In this document: positions 51,156 to 54,197 of the stretch, in pieces
How the letters are laid out: each line of letters starts with the position of its first letter
How positions within the stretch are numbered: the stretch's first letter is position 1
NCBI RefSeq assembly: GCF_022699665.1
Contig: NZ_JALDNB010000012.1
Coordinates: forward strand, 1 to 64,000
Length of the DNA: 64,000 bases
Source: Chryseobacterium aahli
Lineage (GTDB): Bacteria > Bacteroidota > Bacteroidia > Flavobacteriales > Weeksellaceae
Direction: 5' to 3'
The notes under the pieces: model-generated
What the model saw: only the letters and a program-made list of their open reading frames with translations
What the model was told of the DNA's origin: nothing
Database searches by the model: none
Program-made: the position numbers and the translations under genes

Positions 51156-54100
51156 ATGAAAAATTTATGGCTTTTACTTTTAGTATGGTTTCCAATGGTT
51201 TGCTGGGCTCAGATTCCGGTGATAGAAACGCCGGATGGAAAAGGTGGTTTCGGGAAGAATAATCAGGTTGTTCTTCAGAAACTCAATATTGAAACCAAAA
51301 TTACGGGTAGTATTTCAACCAATACCGTAACGATGGTTTTTAGAAATAATTCTAACCGATTGATTGAAGGTAGATTGACTTTTCCACTTCCGGAAGGCGT
51401 AAATGTTAGCGGCTATGCAATTGATATCAATGGGAAATTGCGAAATGCGGTTCCCGTAGAAAAAGAAAAAGCAAAAGAGGTTTTTGAAACCATTCAAAAA
51501 AGAAATGTCGACCCCGGAATATTAGAAAAAGTGGAAGGTAATAATTTCAGAACAAGAATTTATCCTATCAACGCCAATGGTGGCGAGAGAACGGTTCAGA
51601 TTTCTTACAATTATGAATTAAAAAAATTGGCTGACCACTATCAATTCTTTTTGCCGCTGAATTTTGATCATCCTATTCCTGAGTTTACATTGAAAACAAT
51701 AGTTTTTCAGACTCAAATGACTCCAAAATTAGAAGAAAAACCTGACGGAAGTTTTCAGTTTGTAAAAAATGGAAATGTCTGGATTGCCGAAACGCATAAA
51801 ACCAATTATAGACCGACTCAAAATCTGAAAATTAATTTTCCGAAGAATAATGAAGATGAAAATGTTTTGATTCAGAAAGCATCTGATCATTCATCATATT
51901 TTTTAGCAAACATTGCCATCAATTCTAATGAAAGATCTAAAAAATTATTTACAAAAACGGCTATCGTTTGGGATAATTCTTTGAGTGGTTCTAAGAGAAA
52001 TCACATGAAAGAATTTGCTTTGTTGGATGAATATTTTAAAATCAATAAAAATGTTTCGGTCAACATCTATTTCATTAACAATACTTTTGAGGAAGGGAAA
52101 AGTTTTAAAATTAATGAAGGAAATTGGACTGAATTAAAAACTTATTTATCCCAAATTACTTACGACGGCGGAACAGATTTTAGTCAATTGAAACCGATAA
52201 AAGAAGATGAAATCTTATTTTTCACAGACGGAATGTCATCTTTCGGAAATCTGAATCTACCTTGGACAATACCTGTCTATACGATTGCCGCATCAAATAA
52301 AGTGAATTTTAATCAGTTGAAATTCATCAGTACAAAAACCGGAGGAGAATTTTTAAATTTAAATGAAAACGATCCTGAAAAAGAGATTCGTAAAATATTG
52401 TATCAGTCATTGAAGTTCTTAGGTGTTGAGAGTAACGATTCTTTGTCAGAAGTTTATCCTGCTTTATCACAAAGCATTGCTCAGGATTTTGTGTTGACGG
52501 GTATTTTAAAAGGAAACCAGTCCACTGTAAAAGCTCTGTTCGGATATGGAAATGAAGTAACAGAAACCAAAACAATACATTTAAATACAGAAAAGCAATC
52601 AGTAAAAGATTGGGAAATCTCAAAGTTTTGGGCACAAAAAAAACTGAACGAACTGGAAATTTTTGAGCAAAAAAACAAAGACGAAATCAAAAATATCAGC
52701 AGACAGTTTGGGTTGGTAAGCAACAATATGAGTCTGATGGTTTTGGAAGATGTCAATGATTATGTACGATACAAAATTTCTCCACCGGCTGAATTGCAGT
52801 CAGAATACAACAAAATTGTAAAAAATAATAGGGAAGAGCGTGAGGAACGAGTGCAGGATTTGATGTCTGATGCCGAAGAAATGGCAGAAAATCTTAAAGT
52901 ATGGTGGAATACGGACTTTAGTGCTCAGCAAAAATCTTATCCAAAACCTGATGAAGCGCCAATACAACATGGTAGAAGTGACTCAGATTTAGATGGTGCT
53001 GCAGATGAAATGATTGAAATTGTTCAAAATGTAGTTCCTGAGCCAGTAAGGGCACCAAAAGTTGAAAATGCTCCACCAGCATCATCAATGGCAACGAGAG
53101 AAGTTCAGGCTTCCCAAGTAGTAGTAGCAAGAGGTTTGGCAAGTGCAGAAAAAAGTATACCTACAGTTCAAGCGCTTCAAGGGCGGGTTGCGGGTGTTCA
53201 GGTTTCGGTGCGGGGTGTACAATCAATTTCCAAGGAAGTACAAATTGAGGAAGTGGTAAACAGCGGACGGATTATTGCGGTCGATGTAAAATCTGATGCA
53301 AAATATATGAAGTTTTTTGAATCTCTAAAAAAGCCTGCAGATATTTATCAAACCTATTTAAAATATAGAAAAGACTATCAGGAAACACCACAATATTATT
53401 TTGATATTGCCCAATTGATGTTTAAAAATAATGATAAAAAATTAGGCTTAAGAGTTTTGAGTTCTATTGCAGATCTTGATATTGAAAATGAAGAGTTGTA
53501 CAAATTGCTCGCTTACAAACTAAAGCAGGCAGAAGTATTTGATAAGCAACTTTGGATTACCCAAAAGGTTTTAGAATGGCGACCTTTCGACCCGCAAAGT
53601 TACCGTGATTATGCATTGGCATTAGAAGACAATAAACAGTATCAGTCGGCTCTAGATAATTTATACAAAGTGCTCACTCAATCTTATACTCAGGAGTTAG
53701 CAAACAGAGATGATGGTATTGAGGAGGTTGTTTTAATGGAAATGAATCAGTTAATTTCAAATCATAAAAATCAACTGGATTTCACGAAAATTAATCCCAA
53801 AATTGTGGCAGATTTACCGGTTAATATCCGCGTTGTTATCAATTGGAACAAAGATAATACAGATATTGATCTTTGGGTGACAGATCCTAATGGCGAACGC
53901 TGCATGTACTCTAATAGCAAAACAAAAATCGGAGGAAGATTAAGTAATGATTTTACCAGCGGCTTCGGTCCTGAACAGTTTTTACTAAAAAAAGCAGTGA
54001 AAGGAAAGTATAAAATTGAAACTAATTTCTTTGGTGAAAATCAAGTGAGCGTTTCCGGTCCCACGGCGATTATGGCAGAAATTTTCATCAATTATGCTAC

Positions 54101-54197
54101 CGGCAAACAAGAAAGAAAAATTGTGGTTTTCCAGAATAAAACCGAAACAGATCGAGGCGATAAAGAAGGGGTTTTGATTGGAGAATTTGAGTTTTAA
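51156..54197 (+). CDS. VIT/VWA/DUF2135 protein with a TonB-plug-like insert
   Basis: 1013 residues. Order: signal peptide (1-18), VIT domain (about 25-160; FPLPEGVNVSGYAIDINGKL, then the E/K-rich turn VEKEKAKEVFETIQKRNVDP), a VWA-like region (270-420, with TAIVWDNSLSGSKRN and DEILFFTDGMSSFG), a linker, TPR-like helices (about 760-860) and a C-terminal DUF2135 domain (VVINWNKDNTDIDLWVTDPN). Around residues 650-700 it contains IPTVQALQGRVAGVQVSVRG, which is the signature of SusC-type receptor plugs, with REVQASQVVVARG before it. The protein is probably envelope-bound. Function unknown. Confidence 0.8.
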   Translation: MKNLWLLLLVWFPMVCWAQIPVIETPDGKGGFGKNNQVVLQKLNIETKITGSISTNTVTMVFRNNSNRLIEGRLTFPLPEGVNVSGYAIDINGKLRNAVPVEKEKAKEVFETIQKRNVDPGILEKVEGNNFRTRIYPINANGGERTVQISYNYELKKLADHYQFFLPLNFDHPIPEFTLKTIVFQTQMTPKLEEKPDGSFQFVKNGNVWIAETHKTNYRPTQNLKINFPKNNEDENVLIQKASDHSSYFLANIAINSNERSKKLFTKTAIVWDNSLSGSKRNHMKEFALLDEYFKINKNVSVNIYFINNTFEEGKSFKINEGNWTELKTYLSQITYDGGTDFSQLKPIKEDEILFFTDGMSSFGNLNLPWTIPVYTIAASNKVNFNQLKFISTKTGGEFLNLNENDPEKEIRKILYQSLKFLGVESNDSLSEVYPALSQSIAQDFVLTGILKGNQSTVKALFGYGNEVTETKTIHLNTEKQSVKDWEISKFWAQKKLNELEIFEQKNKDEIKNISRQFGLVSNNMSLMVLEDVNDYVRYKISPPAELQSEYNKIVKNNREEREERVQDLMSDAEEMAENLKVWWNTDFSAQQKSYPKPDEAPIQHGRSDSDLDGAADEMIEIVQNVVPEPVRAPKVENAPPASSMATREVQASQVVVARGLASAEKSIPTVQALQGRVAGVQVSVRGVQSISKEVQIEEVVNSGRIIAVDVKSDAKYMKFFESLKKPADIYQTYLKYRKDYQETPQYYFDIAQLMFKNNDKKLGLRVLSSIADLDIENEELYKLLAYKLKQAEVFDKQLWITQKVLEWRPFDPQSYRDYALALEDNKQYQSALDNLYKVLTQSYTQELANRDDGIEEVVLMEMNQLISNHKNQLDFTKINPKIVADLPVNIRVVINWNKDNTDIDLWVTDPNGERCMYSNSKTKIGGRLSNDFTSGFGPEQFLLKKAVKGKYKIETNFFGENQVSVSGPTAIMAEIFINYATGKQERKIVVFQNKTETDRGDKEGVLIGEFEF

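Follow-up and report, generated by a model that had tools for sequence, protein, structure and literature searches.

The linker of an ITIH-like protein from Chryseobacterium aahli carries short phrases that imitate connector regions of the cell's own envelope proteins, and phrases of the same kind recur at the bait of most ~2000-aa A2Ms of the order. As a sequence pattern this mimicry is well supported; as a mechanism it is moderately so. Judging from the sequences, we lean towards the view that the linker is a cleavable protease-trap bait built from phrases that imitate the bacterium's own envelope connectors.

An ITIH-like protein with a disordered linker

The protein is encoded in the window, by which we mean the whole 64,000-nucleotide stretch analysed, and has the following parts outside the linker.

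51156..54197, + strand: ITIH-like VIT/VWA/TPR/DUF2135 gene, 1013 aa (ORF, Pfam, fold match)
N-terminus of the VIT/VWA/DUF2135 protein: signal peptide (by eye)
51273..51608, + strand: VIT domain, residues 40-151 (Pfam PF08487, E 6.4e-25)
51969..51986, + strand: WDxSxS (MIDAS-type) motif of the VWA domain, residues 272-277
53526..53681, + strand: TPR-like helical repeats, best stretch at residues 791-842 (PF13371, E 0.00092, under the curated cut-off)
53826..54146, + strand: YfaP/DUF2135-type C-terminal domain, residues 891-997 (PF09906, E 3.5e-7)

Two marks of ITIH-like VIT-VWA proteins, a VIT domain and a VWA fold with DxSxS, are present. Pfam found the VIT domain PF08487 in 44 of 44 orthologues, and the WDxSxS motif is kept in 110 of 111 VIT homologues. 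Structure comparison of the predicted model gave ITIH1 (6fpy) as the best match to the VWA fold (E 5.8e-23); with Pfam, VWA went undetected in the window protein and VWA_2 appeared in just 2 of the 44 orthologues. The model also places helices at 716-873. Pfam matched neither MG2, A2M nor TED, so the protein does not belong to the A2Ms. Its DUF2135 domain shares 37% identity over 110 aa with E. coli YfaP (E 8e-21), whose gene is separated by one other, yfaQ, from yfaS; the latter, a type II A2M gene, is a pseudogene in MG1655. By sequence, the domain is homologous to a protein encoded in an A2M operon of E. coli.

The closest named orthologues are Chryseobacterium proteins of at most 74% identity. 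Distribution of the gene is patchy: the full-length form occurs in 9 of 36 same-genus genomes, the window's own included, and a shorter-linker form in 3, and a VIT gene was detected at E<=1e-20 in 19 of 148 family genomes. A conserved operon partner was sought and rejected, common neighbours among the best 25 groups being confined to close relatives, chiefly Pedobacter.

Envelope phrases in the window linker

Structure prediction gave pLDDT <50 across residues 600-702, with neither helices nor strands, and residues 571-686 of a Pedobacter orthologue likewise fell below 50. The linker and the segments discussed below lie as follows.

52953..53261, + strand: bait-like linker, residues 600-702, predicted disordered, hypervariable
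53013..53075, + strand: TonB-linker phrase IEIVQNVVPEPVRAPKVENAP, residues 620-640 (53 bits)
53097-53135, + strand: peptide REVQASQVVVARG, residues 648-660, quoted in the initial annotation
53157-53216, + strand: peptide IPTVQALQGRVAGVQVSVRG, residues 668-687, quoted in the initial annotation
53160..53210, + strand: SusC plug-start phrase PTVQALQGRVAGVQVSV, residues 669-685 (26.4 bits)
53220-53258, + strand: peptide QSISKEVQIEEVV, residues 689-701, quoted in the initial annotation
53244..53258, + strand: IEEVV, perhaps a degenerate Ton-box core, residues 697-701 (no significant score here)

The initial annotation had read three peptides as the signature of a SusC plug inside a VIT protein. All three are present in the + strand ORF where it had put them, and the plug-type segment is borne out: against a 17-column plug-start profile derived from 12 of this genome's SusC receptors, the score of PTVQALQGRVAGVQVSV was reached by 0 of 300 linker shuffles and exceeded that of all 715 control windows taken from VIT proteins outside the linker (maximum 8.0). 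Of the three quoted pieces it is the plug start that holds. 'QVVVARG' found no support, and 'QIEEVV' amounts to a five-residue resemblance because no Ton-box match stands out in this linker (best score -1.9 bits, elsewhere than IEEVV, p 0.62). A stronger match than the plug phrase had been overlooked: upstream of it, IEIVQNVVPEPVRAPKVENAP scored its 53 bits against a profile of 15 genus TonBs and resembles the proline-rich linker of the genome's own TonB, and the own-genome search returned that TonB together with an A2M of the same genome. The stretch 'DSDLDG' bears a weak likeness to the start of TSP3; no VIT linker scored above threshold for TSP3.

The segment had also been described as an exapted or shuffled piece of plug, of which the shuffled look survives and a folded plug does not. 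The predicted disorder leaves no plug fold. Pfam Plug (PF07715) gave no match in the window at E<=10, a level at which HMMER's filters lose most matches, and at E<=0.01 it was missing from all 44 orthologues. The host architecture is that of a VIT/VWA/TPR/DUF2135 protein lacking a receptor beta-barrel, which places it outside the TonB plug family. A hidden plug domain was thus ruled out. A Pfam LmeA match over residues 642-701 fell short of its cut-off (12.2 bits against 27.3) and gave no further lead.

Phrases recur and vary across VIT orthologues

We collected 111 VIT linkers, 92 of them distinct. Homologues share the segment in kind: by the criterion of p<0.01 against shuffles, a plug start was found in 66 and a Ton box in 54 of the 92, and 63 and 51, respectively, scored above all 715 control windows. 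In the combined counts, which required p<0.01 against shuffled copies of each bait plus a score >8 and used profiles of the Ton box, the plug start, two TonB phrases, GldN and TSP3, 73 of 92 linkers had a scored phrase. The remaining 19 include all six from Flavobacterium (50-58 aa) and both from Tannerella MAGs. In most cases the VIT linkers had been filled again with Ton-box or plug phrases of SusC, whose order varied; in those of Niabella and in several A2Ms the plug start precedes the Ton box. The Ton-box phrase is strong in many orthologue linkers and often near-perfect, as in EIEEVVMVGYGTQRKT (40.6 bits); no significant Ton box was found in 38 of 92, the window's linker among them.

The phrases also appear to follow the dialect of their lineage. 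Ton boxes of Pedobacter VIT linkers resembled Pedobacter SusC in 18 of 18 cases, and those of the window's family resembled the SusCs of the window's genome in 32 of 34; the p-value of this comparison is merely indicative because 14 of 30 Pedobacter SusC loci were used (the pattern missed the rest, and one looks mis-anchored) and the linkers are related by descent. Of the 14 SusCs taken from the window's own genome, one had its Ton-box block anchored wrongly and 2 yielded no plug block.

By eye, a VIT protein of another family (L014) and two A2Ms (L319 and L321) appear to carry a different type of TonB-receptor plug (YYVDGVK..., GGVPAQYGD...), which suggests independent captures.

Phrases of this kind at the bait of most ~2000-aa A2Ms of the order

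When the window linker was searched against 59 genomes at E<=1e-3, the only other matches were 31 TonB-sized and 7 A2M-sized frames. Fifteen of the TonBs were inspected, the genome's own included; the 7 large frames, of about 1970-2004 aa, were all inspected and have the same A2M landmark. For the 1979-aa A2M of the window's genome (L035), Pfam confirmed MG2, PF00207 and bMG10, with PF00207 from 1210. The A2M phrases fall within about 130 aa before VRxNLNETAFF, where the PF00207 match starts. In E. coli ECAM the PF00207 match begins at 976, and a disordered bait is described at 923-942 (PMC4498604). By sequence position, the phrase slot of the ~2000-aa A2Ms corresponds to the bait region of ECAM.

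Phrases of the same kind, together with OmpA TSP3 and GldN phrases, were found in 62 of 74 distinct baits from ~2000-aa A2Ms of the order (31 of 38 in chosen genomes and 31 of 36 in the order sample). These counts leave out full plugs, which the profiles miss: the 12 unexplained baits include L130, L131, L133, L171, L314, L318 and L354, each with a plug stretch by eye. A set of 30 A2M loci from genomes picked mainly for their VIT protein gave a scored phrase in 25; among the others, inspection by eye showed a plug stretch in L130, L131 and L133, a TonB-like phrase in L156 and nothing in L157. Classes of A2M were assigned by simple pattern rules. In the order sample, the ECAM-like class had a phrase in 1 of 33 frames, that one (L356) being a misfiled ~2000-aa type; the remaining 32 measure 1828-1921 aa except one of 1496. 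A mixed remainder group of 17, mostly ~1500 aa, had a phrase in 11. In other orders of the class, 2 of 27 baits carried a phrase, both weak, among best-scoring matches and not a random draw (the best-scoring 30 loci from 110 genomes, of which 28 gave a bait).

The thioester motif [GE]CxEQ was missing in all nine ~2000-aa A2Ms inspected in full, and GCFEQ was present in all six ~1500-aa A2Ms so inspected; L065, an A2M locus of another order, has ECSEQ.

Imitation falls mostly on periplasmic connectors

The VIT linker, two A2M baits and the linker of a YfbK-like protein were searched against the window's own genome; the matches were TonB, A2M/VIT, SusC or TSP3-like frames, plus a weak 101-aa frame. 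The TSP3 phrase of an A2M matched five other frames of the genome, of which two were checked by Pfam: one is an OmpA-family protein with TSP3 and the other has TSP3 repeats only. A further phrase was traced to a segment of GldN (Pfam GldN, E 5.1e-57), and was scored in five VIT linkers and seven A2M baits. SusC genes are numerous: 14 exceed the cut-off in the window's genome, and three Pedobacter genomes each gave 49 scored matches.

We then compared whole source proteins with 182 baits and linkers, using a 38-point threshold set by hand. TonB matched only at 83-171, GldN only at 128-166 and OmpA only in its TSP3 stretch at 222-347. Three SusCs matched mainly in the Ton box and plug, at about 32-205, and elsewhere in at most 4 of 182. 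A GldM fragment matched 0 of 182. Shuffled baits gave 0-3 matches in 182, and the ECAM-like A2M class gave 0 in 32. The imitated parts of TonB, SusC, OmpA and GldN are flexible or connector regions that face the periplasm.

A hypervariable linker, replaced at least once

Identity between the window linker and those of 21 congeners is 0.21-0.35, against 0.69-0.78 in the flanks. Between two orthologues (L084 and L086) flank dS is 0.16 and linker dN 0.67, and the central linkers are almost wholly different with sharp borders; the VIT linker has been replaced en bloc at least once. In the pair L084 and L085 the linkers differ less (dS 0.13) than do the flanks (0.79), and an exchange is merely suggested because the sliding profile is less clear. 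Linker dN/dS was 0.11-0.77 in 35 and >1 in five of the 40 pairs listed from 94 non-independent close pairs.

Codon usage speaks to how the phrases arose. Identical residues used the same codon in 9 of 16 cases between TonB and the VIT linker (7.1 expected from codon usage), in 12 of 17 between TonB and A2M (7.8 expected), in 10 of 14 between the VIT linker and A2M (6.4 expected) and in 1-5 of 6-9 between the plug start and SusCs. Agreement over 15 TonBs and two A2Ms, the latter being 2 of the 8 A2M loci tried, was 0.51, compared with 0.70 among the TonBs. Recent copying of SusC or TonB DNA was ruled out by this low agreement, since far higher values would be expected. An older copy preserved as amino acids would fit the sequences, because agreement in the TonB-A2M and VIT-A2M comparisons lies somewhat above chance.

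A proposed protease bait and its alternatives

What the phrases have in common is that they are flexible, periplasm-exposed self sequence at a bait-like position. On our preferred explanation, the window protein would be periplasmic and ITIH-like, with VIT and VWA, and the disordered linker after its VWA-containing module would serve as the bait of a protease. Its phrases would present the proline-rich linker of TonB and the plug start of SusC, and elsewhere the SusC Ton box, OmpA TSP3 and GldN, so that a protease reaching the periplasm and cutting such connectors would also cut the bait. The cut protein might then hold the protease, much as ITIH4 and type II A2Ms do, and A2Ms in the same genomes would bear the same kind of bait.

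We read the linker in this way because the sequence findings meet what is known of trapping by A2Ms, ITIH4 and MagD and the link through YfaP. A2Ms trap proteases upon bait cleavage, even without a thioester, in the account given for MagD (PMC5764988); swapping the bait of an A2M is described as re-aiming capture (PMC9918453); and ITIH4, once cut, forms non-covalent complexes with proteases according to a review (PMC10855846). The VIT protein is no A2M, and its linker is called a bait by analogy. We infer protease cleavage, trapping, selection for self-mimicry and benefit.

The window protein shares with ITIH1 (6fpy) and ITIH4 the fold, the VIT plus VWA arrangement and the WDxSxS motif, and by analogy a putative cut site in the flexible stretch that follows the VWA module. 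Unlike them it is bacterial, adds TPR and DUF2135 and has a linker of self-envelope phrases, with inhibition predicted. The phrase-bearing A2Ms place a bait before PF00207, as do bacterial A2Ms of type I (ECAM, with thioester) and type II (MagD, with none), but fill it with TonB, SusC, OmpA and GldN phrases or a whole plug. SusC/RagA receptors are the likely source of the plug-start and Ton-box phrases, in agreement with the lineage dialect (not independent by descent); the VIT protein differs in having neither barrel nor folded plug and in phrases that are reordered and mixed with non-SusC ones. Integrated decoys of plant immune receptors offer a further parallel, in that a defence protein bears an imitation of an attacked self component; here, by contrast, the imitations are short peptides in the presumed cleavable bait of presumed bacterial protease traps.

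Several findings count against the bait explanation: 19 of 92 VIT linkers have no scored phrase, most A2M baits of other orders of the class lack one, codon agreement is in part above chance, linker dN/dS exceeds 1 in five of the 40 listed close pairs, and the whole plug domain in some A2Ms resembles a grafted domain rather than a peptide bait. The strongest rival is decayed plug grafts and recombination filler in a slot that tolerates any flexible sequence, with SusC/TonB-like drift lacking function, which we hold to be fairly unlikely. The very fast evolution of the linker, the numerous SusC genes, codon agreement that partly exceeds chance and the occurrence of a whole plug at the bait of some A2Ms, with phrases alone in relatives, would all suit it. 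Yet the phrase order is often inverted, with the plug start ahead of the Ton box, and a decayed plug domain is disfavoured because decay would not invert it. TonB, OmpA and GldN phrases cannot be relics of a plug, the phrases persist as amino acids despite low codon agreement, most listed close pairs have linker dN/dS below 1, and phrases are absent from the order's ECAM-like A2Ms.

The near-perfect Ton box of many linkers raises another explanation, in which TonB binds the linker and pulls, positions or recharges the VIT or A2M protein with inner-membrane energy. In SusC the Ton box is a working TonB ligand, required in Bt1763 for growth on levan as reported in PMC7782687, and some members may have a functioning Ton box; in the window linker none is evident. 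Against this explanation, which we judge improbable, stand the linkers that have no significant Ton box, the window's included, and the presence in such slots of TonB-linker, TSP3 and GldN phrases, which have no known role as TonB ligands. The initial annotation had proposed instead that the segment binds a receptor or competes for it, that is, a spare plug segment docking on SusC barrels or competing with the receptor's plug. This would agree with the 1507-aa A2M, which has a full plug at its bait, and with the gene row described below, in which that A2M is accompanied by a plug-bearing VWA protein and a plug-unmatched SusC-like protein. The VIT proteins, however, have short phrases only, with no plug fold and no Pfam Plug, and the idea leaves the non-SusC phrases unexplained: a TonB-linker look-alike sits in the same linker, and OmpA and GldN phrases in the A2M bait slot would not compete for a SusC barrel, which disfavours receptor competition. 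For the VIT protein, a plug that docks on a receptor is unlikely, and we rate this reading as very improbable; in the A2Ms with a full plug such docking may occur.

Returning to the protease bait, a wider claim is conceivable and more tentative: that exchangeable bait cassettes of vulnerable own envelope connectors form a bacterial immune principle in periplasmic traps. The traps would be thioester-less A2Ms, plug-bearing A2Ms, ITIH-like VIT/VWA proteins and YfbK-like VWA proteins, and proteases from competitors, predators or hosts would betray their presence when they attack a mimic of TonB, SusC, OmpA or GldN. A portfolio of traps with differing baits may be maintained in some genomes, among them the window's. 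The usual picture of a bait region is a generic stretch sensitive to proteases, and a literature search of partial coverage found no report of A2M or VIT proteins with TonB or plug phrases. If the claim is true, the targets that a cell expects proteases to hit could be read off its baits, and a protease that cleaves connectors of TonB or GldN should cleave the trap as well. Bacterial VIT/VWA/DUF2135 proteins would gain a role, and there would be an explanation for the 'TonB plug' domains of some A2M and VWA proteins, which look like misassembled receptors in annotation.

A2M and plug-bearing genes elsewhere in the genome

The window's genome has three A2Ms: one with SusC and TonB phrases, another beside it with a TSP3 phrase, and one of 1507 aa with a full plug (Pfam Plug at 690-783, PF00207 at 844-932). 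The first two (L035 and L159; contig C19, about 79-92 kb) are adjacent ~2000-aa A2Ms with differing baits, and neighbouring A2Ms also occur in other genomes (L039/L165, L166, L167).

On contig C12 (L158:2601-13019, about 382.6-393.0 kb) lies a row comprising a sigma-factor-like ORF (by eye), a YfbK-like VWA protein, a SusC-like protein and an A2M. The VWA protein carries TonB-like and TSP3-like phrases plus a full Plug; the 921-aa SusC-like protein matches profile positions 269-981 only, its plug region being unmatched; and the A2M is the 1507-aa protein, which has a thioester and a full Plug at the bait. In this row plugs are possibly supplied in trans. On contig C10 (L123:1207-3267, about 350-353 kb), two frames of ~810 aa are matched by the SusC profile; the inspected portion of one has a plug-like ILQWLQGRVAGLTI stretch and by eye is not receptor-like.
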